Below, one piece after another: positions 9,208-53,021 of a stretch of DNA of 64,000 nt; position 1 is the stretch's first letter; each line of letters opens with the position of its first letter. The stretch is from Sipunculus nudus. Taxonomy: Eukaryota > Annelida > Sipuncula > Golfingiida > Sipunculidae. The position numbers and the translations under genes are program-made. The notes beneath the pieces are model-generated. The model was not told the origin of the DNA, made no database searches, and saw nothing but the letters and a program-made list of their open reading frames with translations. The DNA lies in the NCBI GenBank assembly GCA_026874595.1, contig CM049322.1, forward strand, positions 30,877,340-30,941,339. Direction: 5' to 3'.

Positions 9208-12147
9208 TTATGACATCATTGTAAAATTGGAGAAGTACGAACGTGATAATTTTTTAAAATGCTGCAAATTAGAAGCAAACTTAATGTGTCGAGGAAGGGA
9301 GTTCCATAGAGTACTGCCTGCATAAAAAGAGGTAGCCTTGAAGGCTTCAAAACGCGGTTTCGGAAGGATACAGTTTTTGTTTTCGGTTAACCACGTCGAA
9401 TAATTATGAATGCCCTTCGCCGTATGAAAATTCTTACATAAATATGAAGGGGCTAAATCATTTATGCATTTATAGGTTAAAATAGATAGGAGGTACAAAT
9501 ATCGCTGTTCAATTGTCATTAAGCCTATTTCTTTCACTAAATCTAAACTTCTTTGAGTTGGGTCGTAATTTTTTCTTATTATCCTAGCCGCACGACACTG
9601 CATTCGTTGGATTGCGGCACGGAATGTGCTGGGACAGCTGGCCCATACTGTTAGGCTATAATCTATTGAGGGTTGAACAAAGGCGTGATATATAGTGACT
9701 AAAAACTTCTGTGGTAGAACTTTGCTGAGCCGATGTAAAAGTCCAATTTTGCAACATAGCTGTTTAAAAAGGGTAGAAGTGTGAGATTTCTATGTGAGAT
9801 GGGCGTCAATGATCAAGCCAAGGTGAGAAAATTCATCGACATTCGGGACAATATCTTTATCGATAATTATTTGTAATGAATTTGATTGTTTGCGTTGCTT
9901 GGAACTCACAAGCATAGTAGCTGATTTTGTGGCGTTTGCAATTAGTTTGTTTTTATTAAGCCATTTAGTAACTTGGTCTACAGCAGCCTGTTACTTATGT
10001 TGTGCTGATTCGCGATCGATGCCGTCTGCGTATAGCGTGATGTCGTCAGCATAAATCGAGCATTTTGCGTCTGTTACATTATCGGGCAAGTCATTAAGAT
10101 ATAGTAGGAAAAGAATGGGTCCAAGTAGAGTGCCTTGTGGTACACCTGTATCGATGGTTTTCACCCCAGAATTATAGTTATTGAAGCAGACAAACTGCTT
10201 TCGGTCGTATAAATAATTATAAAACCAGGTGTGCGAGTTTCCATTTATGCCATACTGTTTTAATTTACCCAATAATATATCGTGTTTTAAGGGAATCAAA
10301 TCCTTTTTTAAGGTCGAGAAAGCATATGGAGTTTACACGTCCGCAGTTCATAACTGTCAGCCAATTATCAACTATTCTATGTAATGCAGTTTGGGTAGAG
10401 TTGTTTGCAAGAAAGGCAGTTTGTTCAGGAGATATCAAGCGTTTGTGGTTTAAGTAATTAAGGAGATGACGTTTAATGTGCTTCTCTAAGATTTTAATCA
10501 CATGGCTGGTGATCGAAATTGGCCGGTAATTGTTAGTATCAGAAAGTTTCCCTTTACCCTTATAAATGGGTACCACCCTTGCACACTTCCAGTCAGGAGG
10601 AACTATTCCTGTACTGAGTGATAAGTTAAGAATATGTGTCAGCGATGGCGCTAAGATGACCGCGGCCTCTCCAAGTAAGAACCCCGGCATATTAAGGACA
10701 TCAATTCCATGTTTATTCTAAAATGCGACTAGAAGTTTCACGACATCCTGTTGGCTCATTTGAGGGATTGAAAACCGAGAATCAGTAAAATCAGGTTGGT
10801 CCTGCACAACATCTGTGGTGAATGTTTTGGTTTAAGTTTTTCCAACTGAGGCAAAGAAGTCATTCAGGTCATCCGCAGTTAGATCTGGACTACCTTGACC
10901 CCGGCTAACTGGATTGATCACGTGTTTTAAAGACTGCCAAATCTCCTTGGGAGATTTTGATGACTGTGCCTTGTGTCTATAATAGGAACGTTTCAGTTGA
11001 CGGATCATGCAAGTGACCCGATTACGTAACCGCCTGAACTGTGCCCACAGCTGTGGATCATTATTTGACACAGCAGATTTACGAATGCGTTCTCGGTTAT
11101 ATATTAGACGCTGGATATCAGGTGACATCCAGGGATTGTGTCTATTATTTCTAACTCTAAACGTTCTAAAAGGTGCGTGTTTATTACATATGGTCAGAAA
11201 TTCATCACGCCATAGATTCCAGGCTGAGATGACATCATTACAACGGGAAGACAGTGAAATGTTAATGATGACTGTATGGACCGCTTGAAGGCAAGGGGAT
11301 CAAATTTCTTAAAGGACCTAACTCTCACAAATTTGGTTCCTTTTTGGCAACTGCCTCCTGAGAGCCGGGTAAAAATAATATAATGATCGCTAAGTGACCA
11401 CGGAATAACGCCGGATGATGAGTGAATACCGGGTGTATTTGAAAAAATCAAATCTATCGTACTGGATGAGGTTGCGGTGACTCGAGTTGGGGAGGTTATA
11501 AGTTGATGAAGGTTGTATGATGTGGCCATATTCACCAACTCAACATTTATAGACGCTTTTGGGTTATTAAAATCAATATTAAAATCGCCTATGATCACTG
11601 TATGAACATGTTTAGCCATAGCAAGACTAATGTTATCGAAGAGAAGTTGTAAATAACTTTTGTCAGAGTGAGGCGGTCTATATATACACCCGATCAGAGA
11701 GTTACGTCTGTTCCACTGAATTTGGACCCAGATTACTTCTAGATGATCATTAGAAATTAAAGGACATACGGTAGATTGCAAGGAACTTTGTACATAAATG
11801 GCAACACCTCCACCATGTCTATTTCGGTCTTTTCGGTAGAGAGTATACCCCGGGATTTCGATTTCATGGGTTGCGATACTATCGTCCAACCAAGTCTCAG
11901 TGAGACATACTACATGGACCGAACCAACCTTTAAGAGGAGCACTAATTCGTCGAACTTGGGAGGAAGACTTCTTACATTTAAGTGGATTATAGTTAGGCC
12001 ATTCTTCTTTCGGATACACTGTAGGAGTGTTTCAATTGATGTACCATTATCATGCGTGTTTGAGGAAGGCACGTTTTGATAATCGGGAATGAACCCGCCA
12101 TTGTTGTGACCAGGTAAGTAACTCTCGTTGTAAGGGGTACTGTTCAT
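9208..12147 (-). pseudogene. LINE ORF2: APE-type endonuclease and reverse transcriptase, broken
   Basis: N-terminal endonuclease at 12,147-11,250 with LNVRSL, ETWLDD, GGGVAIYV, IGDFNIDF and SDHYII motifs. A frameshift near 11,243 leads into the linker (to 10,832), where TAA and a later TAG interrupt. RT blocks follow: VVPIYKGKGK, NYRPISI, QTAFLANNSTQTAL, LKKGFDS (normally AFDT/S), a second frameshift near 10,290, then GVPQGTLLGPILF and YADD (about 10,050). A stop at 9,991 and another near 9,791 precede the C-terminal region RAARIIRK...LWNSLPRHIK. The catalytic Asp pair is intact but the frame is not. Confidence 0.9.
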
Positions 12148-14020
12148 GTTAATTCTATTACTGCTTGCTTGTGAAAATTTTTAAGAGAGGTTGCGATTTT
12201 GGTTACATCACATATATTTGAACGGAATGCCTTTGAGCCTTTCTTGTTTAGATGGAGTTTGTCAGATTTTAGTGTAAATGGACCAAGGTTATCATTCATT
12301 AGCAGAGTCCATCCGTTTTTTTCAGCGTAGATTTCTAGTGCGGCATTCAGAAGTCTTATTCTTTTAGAGTATATCTTAGAGGGTCTGCTAATCACTGTGC
12401 TAATTGTGACGTGCTTAATACTAGGATTCTGTTTTATAATTGGCATAATCTTACGGAACTTACGAATGCTAGTGTGTGCATTTTCTTTGCTTACATGATT
12501 TGTACCGATGTGTATGAGAAGATGGTCAGATTTGACTTGCTTGATCCTATCAATAGCATGATCAAAAGTAAACACACTTGAGTCCACATGCACATTGACT
12601 TTGGTTTCATCGGAGAGGTCAGAAGAGTTCAAGTTCTTTGTCATTGAGTCCCCCAGGACAGTTACGTAAGAGGATTGGCAGGGCCTTGTTTTGTGTTGTT
12701 TGTGTTCGTGTGAAGGCTTGGGCGTAGAGTTCCCTGATTTCTTCTGAGCTCTGTTTACATGGCATGTTGCTGGGTTTACATTGGAGTCGTTGTGTACTTC
12801 TGTGGAAGCGTCTGTGCTAGGACACGCGTTTACGTCTCGGAAGCTGATAGTTGAGGCTGTTACAGACGAATCTTCACTCGTTGGATTTGATAGTGTGGAG
12901 TTTAGAAGAGTAATGGGTGTACTGGTATTCAGCGTAGTCTGTGTTGAGGTGGTCTTGATTTTTGGAGTTGAGGGTGGATCATTTACTGGTGATGACGAAA
13001 GGCAGTTTGTTGTTACGTTACATTTGCATTGACAGCATCGTGTTGAGTTCGATGGAGTGATACATTCCATGAAGGCATTAATCTGAGTTTGAAGGGTTAT
13101 GTTTATCTCAATTAGCGACTCAAGGCGGGTAGCAAGGAGGTTGATTTTGTGAGGATAGTTTCTGCACGTTATACATGTCCAGATGCCAAGAGTTCCACTA
13201 TCCTCTCCTACACATACCAGCTCATACAGATGCAGCATCGAACCATAGATTCATCAGCAAACTTGCGATCATATACACAGTCCCTAGAGCAATATGATTC
13301 TTCTTGATCTTTGGTTTCAAGGTTGCGTTTTGATTGCACTTTAAATGATGTTCTTTTTTTTGTATTACGTGTCTGACGTTCACATGTAGCTTTATCAGGT
13401 GTTAGTTTATCACAGTTTGATTTTGTGTTCACCTCATTGTATGAATTAGGAGAGCAATGGGTGTTATCATTCAGCTCAACGTGTGAAATAGGGGAGCAAT
13501 GGGTGTTATCATTCAGCTCAGCGTGTGACATTACACTAATATCCAGAGGTGATGGAGGCGTCGTAAAGGCTGGCGATAATGGAGAGTCTTGAGGTATTGA
13601 TAAGTTTATTTCAGGTAATGGACTCATTGAGTTGGAATTTTGAGGGGTCTTCTGGAAAAGATCCCCCAGGATGTTGTCTGTTGTAGTTGACCCTTTGTTC
13701 TCAATTGGGGATGAAGCGATGACCGCAACACTGGTTTCACTCAATCTGGTTTGTACTCTGTTGTTTATACCATTAGATATGAATAACGCTTTGCATGAAA
13801 GTACAGGTTTTGGTATTGACGGGATTATATTGGCAAGTTCTGCCTGGATTGCTGACTTGCATTTTGTTTTCCTGAATTTGTTTAGGTCACACTTTTTCAT
13901 ATTATGAACAGTGGTATTCCAGTTATTTGTGACGTCTCTGATGGCTTACTCTTTTTCTTTTGTCGGCACAGGCAAGCTATCGAGCAGCATGTTAGATTGT
14001 TGAATCAGTTTGTCAGACAT
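12144..14020 (-). pseudogene. LINE ORF1: PHD finger plus SGNH esterase, broken
   Basis: The likely start is the ATG at 14,020. An in-frame TAA at 13,948-13,946 and a frameshift near 13,238-13,208 split the frame. The middle is Ser/Thr/Pro-rich with a short internal repeat (CSPxSHxELNDNTH twice, about 13,440-13,530). A PHD-like zinc finger spans the frameshift: C-x3-C, CCIC, then CITC, about 13,285-13,160. The C-terminal half is an SGNH hydrolase: GDSM (block I), HIGTN (block III) and DKLHLNKKG (block V Asp/His). In this family ORF1 binds RNA and the esterase may act on membranes or acyl groups; the exact role is unsettled. Confidence 0.85.
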
Positions 14021-19721: not shown

Positions 19722-20024
19722 CCATGCAGTTTCACTGCTCTGATTCGACAGACCAGGAATCGCCAGGGCAAGAGAGTTTTACCCCAGAGTCCTTAGCTGC
19801 CTGTGATTGGCCATGGGACATCTCTACATTGACTGACAATCAGTGTTGATGCTCCACCCCTCGCCAACTGAGGTTCAGTTCAAAGGGCAAATATGCTACA
19901 ATGGATTAACTTTAATGTGTTTATTTGTAGATTTTTGTGAAACTGTACTATTGAAATTTCATGTGAGTACTATAATGCAAAATATTGTGCTTAAAGTTAA
20001 GTCTTTAATAGAGATAATAATATC

Positions 20025-23000
20025 ATGACTGGTTTTTCAGTCATTACCCTAAATGTGAGAGGTCTACGTGGGTACAGAAAAAGGAGAAAGATTTTTCATT
20101 GGTTGCTTGATCATGGTGGAAATCGGAGTTTGATATTTTTACAAGAGGTGCATAGTTTAAAAAGCGATGAAGATATTTGGAGGAAAGATTGGCAGGGGCT
20201 ACACTTTTATTCACATGGGTCAAACCAATCGAGGGGTGTAGCTGTATTAGTTGGTAAACAAGTTGATATTTCTGAGATAAGCTTCCATACAGACAACGAA
20301 GGGCGCACTGTTTATCTAAAAGCAAATTTTCAAGGACAATCTTTCTTGTTTATAAATACTTACGCTCCAAACACCGAAACTGAACAAGTACGCTATTTTC
20401 ATGAAATGGCCGAAAAACTAAAGCTTATTGAGTTGGAGCCACATACTAATATAATCTGGTGCGGTGATTTTAATTTATGTTTTGATAAAATTGATACGCA
20501 GGGTGGGAATTACCAGCCAAAGTTGAAGTCCATTGAGAGTGTTCAAGGCTTCATACAAACATATGGATTAATTGATATATGGAGATTAAGGAATCCCTCT
20601 TATTCGAATTTCAGTTGGAGTAGTAAAAAACATACTATAAATAGAAGGCTTGATTATATTCTAATCTCCAGTAATTTGAATAATCAGGTCATACAGGTTA
20701 ATATAATTCCAGCAATTTTAACAGATCACTCGGCAGTGAAATGTGACTTCAAATCGCCAAGTGGTTGTAAACATGGCCCGTCCTTCTGGAAATTAAATTT
20801 GTCCCTCCTGGAAGATCCAGTTTTTGTGTCATCAATGCGAGAAAACATAAAAAAGTGGAAAGAGCATTATGAAAACAAAGATAGGGAAACAAAATGGTGG
20901 GAATATCTAAAGTTTAAAATAAGAGAATATTCAATCTCATATTCTAAAAGAAAATGTAGACGTGAAAAGCTTATACTGAAAAACCTAGAGAAAAGTTTAA
21001 AGGATGTAAAATTCAACTTGCATAACAGTAATAATCAAACGGAGATCGATCAAATATCTCGAGAAATAGATAAGCATTATGAGAGAATAGTCGATTGCTC
21101 CATGATAAGGTCTAGAATCACATGGTTTGAAGAAGGGGAGCGTAATTCAAAGTACTTTATGAATTTGGAAAGAAAAAACAAAAGCAAAACAACCATAAGA
21201 AAATTATTGTGTAATGGGAAAGATATAACAGATCAGCGTAAAATTATGATAGAACTGAAAAGATTTTATGAAGAAAAGTACACCTGTACTGGTACCTTTT
21301 CAAAACAAGAGTGTACACAACTTCTGTCAGAGTATGATACTCCAGTCCTATCAGATATGCAAGCAGCTAGTTGTGATGGAATGATCTCAGAAAAAGAAGT
21401 CCTATCAACATTGAAACAAATGAAAAATAATAAAACTCCCGGGAATGATGGATTGCCAAAAGAATTCTATATAAAATTTTTTGATCTCGTCGGAAAGGAT
21501 CTCGTTAATTGTTTAAACAGATGTTTTGAGGAGGGTAAGCTAACTACAAGTCAAAGGCAAGCAGTGGTTACTTTGATAGAAAAACCAGGTAAAGATAATC
21601 GTTTAATCTCATCATGGCGACCAATTAGTTTGTTAAATGTCGATTATAAGATATTGAGTAAAATTTTAGCAGAGCGCGTAAAAGCTGTTCTTCCTCATCT
21701 TATTAATGAGGACCAAACGGCCTTTGTTCCCGGGAGAAACATTTGTGAAACGAACCGTTTAATTTGTGATATCTTAGATTACTGTATCAAAGAAAATAAA
21801 CCTAATATCTTGTTTGCCGTTGATTTTGCTGCTGCTTTCGACTCCATAGATCATAACTATATGTTCAGTGTTTTGGAAAAGTTTGGCTTCCAGACAGATT
21901 TTATTAAATGGATACAACTTCTTCATAACGATATCCAAAGCTGTATTATAAATAACGGTTACACTACAGGATATGTCAGTGTAGCAAAAGGTACCAGACA
22001 AGGAGACCCCCTGGCGCCATATTTGTTTGTCATGGCAATTGAAATCCTAGCAATAATGGTACGTAAATCTGTGTCTATCAAAGGGATTAATATTAACGGC
22101 TTTGAAATTAAACAGTGTATGTATGCAGACGATACCACATTTTTTCTGAAAGACATAGACTCAATGGTTGCATTATGCTCAGTGTTGGATAAATTTGCGC
22201 AGCTTTCGTCTATTAAGATAAATTATGAAAAATGTGAAGCAGCATGGACAACGAAGCAACCTGTGTATAATAAAATGGAACGTTTTAAATGGATAGACCT
22301 TAATACCGAAGCACTAAAAATATTAGGGATATGGCATACACATGATAAAAATCTTTCCAATGTATTAAATTTTACTAAAATATTGGAACAGTTAAAGACA
22401 CTTCTAAATGTATGGAGACAGAGGCCTTTAACCATATTTGGTAAAAATGTGATCTTAAAATCCTTAAGCATTTCAAAAATAATATACGTAACAAACATTC
22501 TGGAACCACCCAGAGAATTCGTTAAGACTGTAAAAAATGTCATGGTTGATTTCATATGGCATGGAAGGAAACCGAAAATAAAATATAATGTCCTTATCAA
22601 TAACTATGGGAACGGTGGCTTGAGGCTGCCTGATATTAATACAATAATAGAAACTCAAAGATTTATGTGGATGAAGAAAATCATCACAGGTGACACGAGA
22701 AAGTATGCAATAATACCCAATCTTTATTTAAAACGCGTTGGTGGAATGAAAAATATCAGAGGTAACTTGGATCCTGAAATTCTAAAAATAGGAATGTCAT
22801 CTTTTTATTTACGTTGCCTTGATGTATGGCACTCTGTTACTTCCGGGGAACCATTAAGTAAAGAAACAGTCTTGACACAACATCTATGGAATAATAGATA
22901 CATCAAGGTAGGAGGTAAATCAGCCTATTATTATTTTCTTGATATTCTTGGTATAAAGTATGTTCGTGATTTGTACAATGACAGAGGTGAAAAAAGAAAA

Positions 23001-23801
23001 TTTGAGGAAGTTGTAGCAAAAAACAGTTATGCTTACAACAAATACTATATCCACTGGATAGCTCTGCAAAGGGCTATACCACAAAAATGGTTTCAGGATA
23101 ATGATTTTAACAGATATATTGAGGTTAATAGTTCTTCTGTATTAAATAATGTATTTATATCCTACAGTGACGTTGTTCTAGATTTGGACAAACTCACATT
23201 CAGAAGTGTCTACAACAAAATAATATCATGTAAAACTTCTGAACCAATCTTCAAAATAAAGTTACCAAACCTGTATAAAGACTTTAACTTGAAACGAGCA
23301 ATTAATTACGTTTATAAGACCACTCTAGACATGTATCTAAGGCAATTCCAGTTTAGAATTCTGCATAACATCCTTTCTGTTAACGAAAATCTATTTAGAT
23401 GGAGGATAACAGACACAAACAGATGTTCTTATTGTTTCACTAAAAATGAATCTATTTATCATTTATTCTGTGAATGTCACATTTCCAAAAACTTTTACTT
23501 GCAAATTAAGTCTTGGGCTAAAAATTTTGGATTAGAGATGCCAAGCCTCGGTCGTCAACTTTTATACACTGGAGCAGAAAAATCAGAACATGCTGCGCTT
23601 GTAAATATGTTGATGTTGGTCTACAAGATCATGGTTTTTAGTAATAGGAATAATCTGGCACCTCTTTCATTGGATCAGTATGTGACAAAACTGACAAGAT
23701 TTGAATATCTTGAACGCAAAGTGGCGGAAAAAAGGCACAAAAGTACTATACATGAAATAAAATGGAAACCAATTCCTCATACTATACTAAACAAGAAGTG
23801 A
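20025..23801 (+). CDS. LINE ORF2p: APE endonuclease plus reverse transcriptase
   Basis: A 1258-residue protein that would nick target DNA and reverse-transcribe its own RNA there. The endonuclease (residues 1-240) keeps N10 (TLNVRGL), E41, Y113 (NTYAPN), D148/N150 (GDFNL), D210 (RRLDYIL) and D234/H235 (TDHS). The RT (about 450-760) has TPGNDGLPKEFY, SWRPISLLNVDYKI, DQTAFVPGRNI, FAAAFDS (about 600), GTRQGDPLAP and YADD (700-703). The C-terminus has a CxxC...H...C zinc knuckle (1134-1151, CSYC and HLFCEC). The RQGDPLSP-type motif and overall text place it in the L1/Tx1 group. Length is normal for ORF2. All catalytic residues are present and no stop interrupts it; activity is plausible but unproven. 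Confidence 0.95.
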   Translation: MTGFSVITLNVRGLRGYRKRRKIFHWLLDHGGNRSLIFLQEVHSLKSDEDIWRKDWQGLHFYSHGSNQSRGVAVLVGKQVDISEISFHTDNEGRTVYLKANFQGQSFLFINTYAPNTETEQVRYFHEMAEKLKLIELEPHTNIIWCGDFNLCFDKIDTQGGNYQPKLKSIESVQGFIQTYGLIDIWRLRNPSYSNFSWSSKKHTINRRLDYILISSNLNNQVIQVNIIPAILTDHSAVKCDFKSPSGCKHGPSFWKLNLSLLEDPVFVSSMRENIKKWKEHYENKDRETKWWEYLKFKIREYSISYSKRKCRREKLILKNLEKSLKDVKFNLHNSNNQTEIDQISREIDKHYERIVDCSMIRSRITWFEEGERNSKYFMNLERKNKSKTTIRKLLCNGKDITDQRKIMIELKRFYEEKYTCTGTFSKQECTQLLSEYDTPVLSDMQAASCDGMISEKEVLSTLKQMKNNKTPGNDGLPKEFYIKFFDLVGKDLVNCLNRCFEEGKLTTSQRQAVVTLIEKPGKDNRLISSWRPISLLNVDYKILSKILAERVKAVLPHLINEDQTAFVPGRNICETNRLICDILDYCIKENKPNILFAVDFAAAFDSIDHNYMFSVLEKFGFQTDFIKWIQLLHNDIQSCIINNGYTTGYVSVAKGTRQGDPLAPYLFVMAIEILAIMVRKSVSIKGININGFEIKQCMYADDTTFFLKDIDSMVALCSVLDKFAQLSSIKINYEKCEAAWTTKQPVYNKMERFKWIDLNTEALKILGIWHTHDKNLSNVLNFTKILEQLKTLLNVWRQRPLTIFGKNVILKSLSISKIIYVTNILEPPREFVKTVKNVMVDFIWHGRKPKIKYNVLINNYGNGGLRLPDINTIIETQRFMWMKKIITGDTRKYAIIPNLYLKRVGGMKNIRGNLDPEILKIGMSSFYLRCLDVWHSVTSGEPLSKETVLTQHLWNNRYIKVGGKSAYYYFLDILGIKYVRDLYNDRGEKRKFEEVVAKNSYAYNKYYIHWIALQRAIPQKWFQDNDFNRYIEVNSSSVLNNVFISYSDVVLDLDKLTFRSVYNKIISCKTSEPIFKIKLPNLYKDFNLKRAINYVYKTTLDMYLRQFQFRILHNILSVNENLFRWRITDTNRCSYCFTKNESIYHLFCECHISKNFYLQIKSWAKNFGLEMPSLGRQLLYTGAEKSEHAALVNMLMLVYKIMVFSNRNNLAPLSLDQYVTKLTRFEYLERKVAEKRHKSTIHEIKWKPIPHTILNKK

Positions 23802-32109: not shown

Positions 32110-32830
32110 CTAGCTGACCAACAATCTCAAGTTCTCTGAGTATTCCAACACATTTGCTGCTTCAACACTCTGTGCTGCATATTCACATTCACGAAGGAAT
32201 ATAGAAAACTCATCAAGTCCCTTTGCATTTTCCGGTTTGAAAACTGGCCAGTGTAGTGCCCTCTTGACATAAGCATGAGCAATAACCTCAGGATCATCAT
32301 ATCTACTTTTAAATTCCTCCATAACTGCGGAATAGCCAACGTTTGAGTCTAAATGTGCATAGCCTTTTACTATTCTGTTAGCCTCACCTACAGTTAACTG
32401 GTCTAAATAATTCATTCTCATTCATCAAAAGAGTTTGTGTTTGCTACAATTCTGACATCAAATTGTCTAATGAAACGTTTGTAGTCCATAGGACCACCAC
32501 AAAATATCTGAATATCAGATACTGGCTTTCTCAGTTCTCTAGCTACAGACATGAGTTCAGGACTGTCTGTTACAGTTTCTTCGGACATGTTAATCTTTTG
32601 TTGTGGTACAAACTCACTGGCATTTGGATCTAAGTGAGCATGTTCAGTTAAAGGTTGAGCAGCGGCCTTTTGAGCATTTACTATCACACTGGAATGAACA
32701 GGTTTGAATGACAGTCTTTCTTCAAAATCATTTAGGACATCAGATTTAGCTTCTGCTAAAAAGTCTTCATACTTTTTGAGTCAGGTAGAGTACTTGGAAA
32801 GGAGCAAAGGAATTTCAGTATTTTCTTTAA
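32110..32830 (-). pseudogene. BEL/Pao gag-like (DUF1759-type) fragment, frameshifted
   Basis: Two overlapping frames (32,687-32,418 and 32,421-32,110) join at one frameshift. GGPMDYKRFIRQFD and EANRIVKGYAHLD, then DDPEVIAHAYVKRALHWP and AKGLDEFSIFLRECE are typical of the gag domain of BEL/Pao elements, which packages element RNA. The frame is interrupted beyond 32,110. Confidence 0.8.
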
Positions 32831-51541: not shown

Positions 51542-51658
51542 GATAAAATCTTGAAGATGACATTATATCCGGGATTTGCAATCTTTATAGACCAGAGAAC
51601 TCAAAGATGTTGATCTTCATTTATTTAACTCTCTCATCCCTGAACTGGATTTCTGCCG
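51542..51658 (+). CDS. Ig gene exon: 5' UTR plus signal peptide
   Basis: Acceptor TCCTTTTGCAG ends at 51,541. A first ATG at about 51,558 gives a 20-codon-scale frame that stops at once, so it is a short upstream frame. The ATG at 51,607 starts MLIFIYLTLSSLNWISA, a clear hydrophobic leader, and a GTAAGT donor follows at 51,659. The split Gly codon is completed by the next exon, with probable cleavage just before or after that Gly. Confidence 0.75.
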
Positions 51659-51872
51659 GTAAGTCAATAACTCATTAGTAGGTTCATGCATTCAGAAGCA
51701 TTTAAGTTCCCTATACTGCATTACATTCTTTAAAATTAAACCTGATCTATTCTGGAACACACCGGAATTCATAGCATGTGCAAAAAAATTGAAATAAATG
51801 AAAAAAAATATTTTACATGAAATAATATCATTACCGTATAAAATTTATAGAAGGTAGAAGGTAAATGTATTA

Positions 51873-51937
<65 letters not shown>

Positions 51938-52083
51938 AATAGCCACTCTGGTTCATTGTATGTCCAAGGAATAGAGAATTGATTTTCTAGCGAAACGATT
52001 GGAACGCCGGACTTGTGCGTTATTCGACCTGGATTCGCATCCCGCATCGACATAATATTTTCTACTAAGCAAAATGTTTACGT

Positions 52084-52136
<53 letters not shown>

Positions 52137-52473
52137 TAATCTACTGGTGTCTTGCAATAAACAACTCTCTATGGTTGTGTGCTTTATGGTATGACGCCAA
52201 AGTTTTATAGTTATATAAATATGAGGGAATCAAATTTTGGCAGACATTTTTACATTTTTACGTAGTTTCGTGCAACATGTTGGAGAGAGTCTTACCTGAT
52301 GAGTGCAAAAAAGGTTGCACGAAACTACCTGGTCGTAAAAATGACTGACAAATTTGATTCTCTCTCTCTCTCTATATATATATATATCAATAGCAGACAC
52401 CTACATGGTAAGAGATGAGACCGGACGTGTCACCTGTCAGATCAATAGTGATGGCAGTACTATTCAAACTATA

Positions 52474-52524
<51 letters not shown>

Positions 52525-53021
52525 GTATATGTATATGTATAAAGTTGAAAGCTCAGCTTTTATGTTTAATTACTCAAGTAACTGTAATTGAAAGAAGCCC
52601 TTCTGTTGCGAAATAATTTGACACCAACATCTGTTAGTTAATTGTGCAGGTCAGCAGATTGCATCAGTAGCAGACACCTACATGGTAAAAGATGAGACCG
52701 GACGTGTCACCTGTCAGATCAACAGTGGTGGCAGGGCTATTCAATCTGTAACATGGGAGCGACAAGTTCTCAGTGGAGGACAAATTACTGTCTATGTATA
52801 CCATGTAGCTCAAGAGATTGGAGAACCAAAGTTGGACCTGATTGATCGATCAGATTATGAACACTTCAATAACGGCACCAGCAGACTGGTTATACACAGA
52901 GTCCATACAGATCCTGATCAAGCCAACCACACTTGTCGTGTGGACTTCATGGGACCACAAGCAGAGGATACAGGCCAAGTGTTTGTTATTGGTAATGTTA
53001 TCATATAAAATAAAATAGGAC

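Follow-up and report, generated by a model that had tools for sequence, protein, structure and literature searches.

A hammerhead ribozyme motif in an intron of a Sipunculus nudus Ig-like gene most likely derives from a truncated Penelope-like element

We analysed a hammerhead ribozyme motif present in an intron of an Ig-like gene located on a 64-kb stretch of Sipunculus nudus DNA, here called the window. The results strongly indicate (probability about 0.94) that the motif is part of a Penelope-like element (PLE) remnant, which consists of truncated copies in head-to-head orientation, was inserted into the intron before the gene was duplicated, is now drifting and should cut little or not at all. 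The hammerhead of the window most likely joins the already known PLE hammerheads and is not a purpose-built intron ribozyme. This settles the identity of an apparently striking intronic ribozyme and illustrates one way in which introns can acquire such motifs, namely through a truncated Penelope-like insertion that is later duplicated together with its host gene. In the course of events that we propose, the hammerhead of the parent element would be located downstream of the ORF in a non-coding region, which in tandem copies is the pLTR, and may, as known PLEs suggest by analogy, serve there to process the transcript of the element. The copy in the window would be a 5′-truncated remnant, with another truncated copy attached to it head-to-head; insertion into the leader-to-V intron would have been followed by duplication of the Ig-like gene and then by drift of the copies.

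A complete hammerhead motif in sense orientation to the Ig-like gene

The original prediction listed CUGAUGA, a 6-bp helix II, GAAA, a minimal helix III, GUC and a 4-bp helix I, and all these parts were found in the sequence (Table 1). The core conforms to CUGANGA...GAAA, the cleavage site to NUH, and three helices can be formed, of which helix III consists of two canonical pairs only. Splice signals and the in-frame join of the flanking exons confirmed that the motif has the same strand orientation as the Ig-like gene and is situated inside the leader-to-V intron of that gene, as had been claimed. Both strands were scanned with a strict descriptor that required the core, an NUH site, a helix I of 4 bp, a helix II with 4 bp or more and two pairs in helix III, G-T pairs being allowed. 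It detected a single site in the window, whereas 300 dinucleotide-shuffled windows yielded none.

The covariance-model check named in the original prediction went against the motif. In a search of 1 kb against all 4227 Rfam families, family Hammerhead_1 scored 25.5 bits (E 0.0011), which is below its gathering cut-off of 34. The hammerhead was not listed when the whole window was searched at gathering, nor when eight relatives were submitted to one joint search at E 0.5; the hammerhead scores given here were obtained from short stretches. Every family member tested scored below gathering. Since a copy with a GTC site that is near the family majority reached 28.1 bits, and a copy beside a coding PLE only 15.8 bits, the Hammerhead_1 model fits this hammerhead subtype poorly. 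The motif itself is real.

Table 1. Coordinates of the hammerhead motif, the PLE insertion and the intron in the window
Feature	Position	Strand	Basis or remark
Hammerhead ribozyme, type I layout, minimal helix III	52292-52338	+	Strict descriptor; Rfam Hammerhead_1 at 52290-52340
Helix I, 5′ strand TTAC and 3′ strand GTAA	52292-52295; 52335-52338	+	Sequence
Core, CTGATGA and GAAA	52296-52302; 52321-52324	+	Sequence
Helix II, GTGCAA (52303-52308) and TTGCAC (52315-52320), 6-nt loop	52303-52320	+	Sequence
Helix III, minimal: A-T and C-G pairs, loop TACCTG		+	Sequence
GUC cleavage triplet (GTC)	52332-52334	+	Cut predicted after 52334
Left, inverted PLE 3′-end copy	52137-52282	-	Without hammerhead 5′ half; runs outward through the 3′ flank of the element
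Right PLE 3′-end copy with complete hammerhead, then (TC)n(TA)n microsatellite	52283-52369	+	Homology
Leader-to-V intron of the Ig-like gene, carrying the insertion	51659-52649	+	gtaagt donor, gcag acceptor
Foldback of the two inverted copies, predicted to compete with the ribozyme fold	52223-52364	+	Folding energies

The hammerhead belongs to a dispersed repeat family

The original prediction overlooked that the hammerhead is a dispersed, high-copy repeat. A DNA search with region 52214-52369 gave at least 76 matches in the genome (1.43 Gb, 153 contigs; the best 40 of 476 candidates scored). In addition, the hammerhead signature had 49 exact genomic matches in its strict form and 193 in a looser form, with none for the reversed control of either. 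Sequence shared among the copies, of which 39 loci were retrieved for comparison, was densest over the hammerhead, faded gradually leftward and, on the right, had dropped off by about 200 nt from the start of the probe. Some unrelated pairs of copies (L022 with L046) aligned for about 600 nt leftward, and the few pairs that aligned along the full stretch did so because the loci are duplicates. Such a leftward fade is the pattern that 5′-truncated retroelement copies would give. A hammerhead-length match to the probe was missing in four of 51 loci (L010, L011, L026 and L067).

The copies were aligned in 54 rows, excluding L059, which is the same place as L022. The core was intact in 38 of these rows, corresponding to 12 of 13 coding-locus rows and 26 of the 41 rows that represent the window and non-coding loci. 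All 13 coding rows differed at position 7, which is free in hammerheads, and their ten core positions showed one change together, many of these rows being near-identical. Position 7 was changed in three of the other 41 rows, and the ten core positions had 0 to 6 changes each; thus, no core constraint is visible among those rows. No compensatory (double-sided) changes were found within the family in 47 distinct rows, in which 92.1% of the helix II cells were paired; pairing was 88.6%, compared with 89.0% in shuffles of the 3′ letters and 23-43% when the strands were slid by 1-3 columns, values that apply to copies that are close and of which many are decaying.

Linkage of the hammerhead to a putative Penelope-like ORF

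Locus L048 (the place of L059 and L022) contains the end of an ORF 644 nt upstream of the hammerhead, which we take to be Penelope-like from its motifs. A genome search with a C-terminal piece of this ORF gave at least 150 matches (the best 150 of 2408 candidates scored). Among the matches listed, several lay in frames open for over 700 aa, and C3 and C17 carried further ORFs spaced at 2427 bp. Of the 12 coding loci with the best scores, which include the seed, 11 had a hammerhead with 88-90% identity to the family probe 3′ of the ORF stop, at a distance of 341-362 nt in ten loci and of 644 nt in the seed L059, and no hammerhead was found in L067. The motif of the window thus matches the non-coding stretch that follows a Penelope-like ORF, and the stranded retroelement terminus that was among the suggested origins is right. 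The accompanying remark on the absence of such a protein nearby is correct for the window, where tblastn with two PLE ORFs gave no match better than E 2.7, but coding PLEs exist elsewhere in the genome; among the matches listed, the closest one is on the same contig at a distance of about 0.75 Mb.

Tandem copies giving pseudo-LTRs were found in a sister array (L071), the group of which is 58% identical across the query. The repeat offset in this array is 2427 bp, and the repeats are identical over 1374 nt of overlap. A hammerhead-like motif is present between its consecutive ORFs; helix II of this motif (GTGCCG/CGGTAC) is different yet pairs, and the match to the family probe is one of motif only (11 nt, E 0.10). 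A different hammerhead-like motif, having a longer helix II, was observed near another PLE copy (L069:2813).

The ORF contains the motifs FDVVDFYPSI, YRDDGL, VYQATV...SYIGLTENSFKSR and CNLC...RNEL...CRH, which we take as candidate motifs of a telomerase-like reverse transcriptase (RT) and a GIY-YIG endonuclease. Pfam searches with the PLE ORF and with the seed piece detected neither RVT_1 nor GIY-YIG, a PDB search with the PLE ORF detected no sequence relative, and a profile comparison of the PLE ORF with the LINE RT of the window was uninformative. As Pfam and PDB are silent on the ORF, the name of the protein rests on these motifs and the element architecture, which together suggest that it is Penelope-like.

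Hammerhead ribozymes in Penelope-like elements were reportedly described by Cervera and De la Pena in 2014. In agreement with the original prediction that hammerheads with a tiny helix III are known from these elements, minimal hammerheads without helix III in PLEs are described in PMC6155905, and PLE minimal hammerheads also in PMC11167929. The elements analysed here resemble these known ones in having a minimal type I motif with a tiny helix III, a non-coding location, a single ORF with RT- and endonuclease-like motifs, and tandem copies. The window copy differs from them in being a 5′-truncated remnant in a host intron. According to PMC11167929, the ORF of the Anolis element begins at stem II, whereas here the hammerhead starts 341-362 nt past the ORF stop in 10 of 12 loci; the same paper describes the Anolis hammerhead as protein-assisted, with catalytic mutants leaving in vitro insertion unaffected.

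The insertion consists of two head-to-head PLE 3′ ends

The left, inverted copy, whose left boundary at 52137 is approximate, aligned with the element of L024 along the minus strand from 52282 to 52087 (82% identity, the outer part being AT microsatellite) and with paralogue L056 over about 52135-52282 (93%). The right copy is 86% identical to L024 over 52284-52365 and 89% identical to the 75-nt family probe over 52284-52352. The half-units of the window are found at 52275-52206 on the minus strand and 52315-52382 on the plus strand. A target-site duplication could not be read because microsatellites are present on both flanks. The copy found in the window is made up of two 5′-truncated PLE 3′ ends arranged head-to-head.

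Inverted head-to-head copies are also found elsewhere in the genome. The first 100 of the 193 signature sites included 11 neighbour pairs at a distance of up to 5 kb, nine divergent, two same-strand and none convergent. Half-unit pairs within 400 nt in the 39 loci were all divergent (13 pairs, none convergent and none same-strand), with three of the 13 being duplicates of the window insertion and the search query favouring the divergent shape. The window insertion is the same head-to-head arrangement in miniature. The closest same-strand pair among the 100 signature sites, C3:58043893 and C3:58043955, is separated by 62 bp.

A similar situation has been described for Adineta vaga, in which, according to PMC3846280, inverted Penelope repeats with palindromic junctions are abundant and mostly head-to-head. 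Divergent pairs and palindromic junctions are common to both animals. The word hammerhead is absent from that text, whereas here the junction is situated inside the ribozyme sequence of the left copy.

Decay of the insertion in paralogous introns

The leader of the host gene starts with ATG at 51607, and the leader exon and the V-like exon are joined in frame. Downstream, ORF 59445-59780 matches Ig_3 above the cut-off and ORF 62276-62656 matches Ig_2 below it; their grouping into one gene is putative. The V-like exon (52649-52993) had no Pfam match at 0.001. A genome search with this exon, in which 34 of 34 candidates were scored, gave 31 matches, all of them on C17; two of the 31 are partial duplicates adjoining a full exon. 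Most of the C17 matches fall at 29.4-32.2 Mb, with another group around 15 Mb, and represent an extensive cluster of Ig-like genes. Part of the V-like exon (52669-52760) recurs as a duplicate at 52392-52470 in the same intron, directly 3′ of the PLE insertion, and the 31.53-Mb paralogue (L057) has a counterpart of it that is preceded by the acceptor-like sequence tttctctttcag.

The insertion is common to four paralogous introns, those of the window and of C17 at 30.75, 31.38 and 31.53 Mb. The shared insertion and flanks suggest that it entered the leader-to-V intron before the Ig-like gene was duplicated. The window and L009/L056 contain CTGATGA, whereas it is missing from L010/L057 and L011/L058. 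The copy at 30.75 Mb (L009/L056) has an intact core, but helix II contains a mismatch and the cleavage site is GTA. The copy at 31.53 Mb has neither CTGATGA nor the GAAACTAC stretch, and that at 31.38 Mb is missing the 5′ strand of helix I and its core reads ATGATGA. As the catalytic core has been lost in two of the four paralogous insertions, there is no sign of a retained function in the intron, and the pattern is one of drift. A 90%-identical paralogue, C17:30225021, showed no element match in 1.5 kb, a stretch that stops short of the leader exon. The four introns, which are at differing stages of decay, offer a small natural experiment on the retention or loss of a retroelement hammerhead in an intron.

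A foldback predicted to compete with the ribozyme fold

Also overlooked in the original prediction, the hammerhead makes up the right half of an approximately 140-nt foldback. The RNA of region 52210-52375 folded into one long hairpin of -58.9 kcal/mol (z -8.1; mean of shuffled sequences -30.4, with none of 200 shuffles as good), and a 15-nt exact inverted match between 52262-52276 and 52314-52328 means that bases of the ribozyme 3′ half recur on the opposite strand. When helices I and II were enforced, the ensemble was 6.3 kcal/mol worse without the left arm and 23.5 kcal/mol worse in the full foldback, by which amount the window RNA is predicted to favour the long hairpin over the ribozyme fold, in energies that leave out tertiary contacts and co-transcriptional folding. 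In the pre-mRNA, the folding energies suggest, the antisense left arm would most likely pair with the right arm, and the ribozyme should for that reason cut little or not at all. The hammerhead of the window is, in its present context, probably an inactive remnant.

We consider it very unlikely that a head-to-head PLE insertion often constitutes a built-in cis off-switch for intronic hammerheads, or that the hairpin, as dsRNA, has a regulatory role in the Ig intron. If the former were true, the antisense copy of the ribozyme 3′ half would let hammerhead-bearing retroelements stay in host genes.

Alternative explanations

The original prediction also offered an intronic ribozyme acting on splicing. 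Such a domesticated hammerhead would cut the Ig pre-mRNA between the leader and V exons and so tune expression, in a way similar to amniote hammerheads, and the window copy is indeed in sense orientation with its core, helix II and GUC intact. According to PMC6155905, amniote genes (RECK, CTCL) contain type I intronic hammerheads, for which a retroelement origin has likewise been proposed. Those are conserved between species, whereas here the core is gone in half of the paralogous copies, and the L009/L056 copy that retains it has an altered cleavage site and helix II. Moreover, the window has lost the pairing of the longer distal helix I that characterises the family (GGAGAGA versus TGACTGA), the 1.5 kb examined at paralogue C17:30225021, which does not extend to a leader exon, has no element match, and the antisense arm, judged by the predicted advantage of the foldback, should sequester the ribozyme. 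Domestication is therefore highly improbable, and a decaying PLE remnant most likely accounts for the motif.

The retrozyme that had also been proposed, a small non-autonomous element made of tandem hammerhead monomers and spread via circular RNA, finds some agreement in the type I layout, in the many small dispersed copies and in one pair of same-strand signatures, among the first 100 sites, with a spacing of 62 bp; for animals, PMC7229834 gives retrozyme RNA lengths of about 170-400 nt and likewise describes many type I hammerhead copies per genome. The 39 loci contain no short tandem hammerhead monomers, however, homology extends about 600 nt leftward in some pairs, and the hammerhead is directly linked to coding elements, with the ORF end of L048 upstream of it. 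In addition, a helix III of such tiny size marks the subtype that PMC6155905 describes for PLEs. Together these results make a retrozyme very unlikely. Chance resemblance to a hammerhead, to which the Rfam score below gathering would lend itself, has a negligible probability: it is effectively refuted by the genomic family, with its 193 signature matches and the core kept in nearly all coding-locus rows, and by the shuffled windows that yielded no site.

Other elements in the window

Besides the PLE remnant, the window contains a long open LINE ORF of 1266 aa (20001-23801) with endonuclease, RT and zf-RVT domains, and, on the minus strand at 9208-12180, pieces of a second LINE-type element with RVT_1 in 10265-10717. 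A DUF1759 match on the minus strand (32110-32421) presumably belongs to a Pao/BEL-type element. Finally, a tRNA match on the minus strand at 1985-2057 scored 30.9 bits against a cut-off of 29 and could be a SINE.
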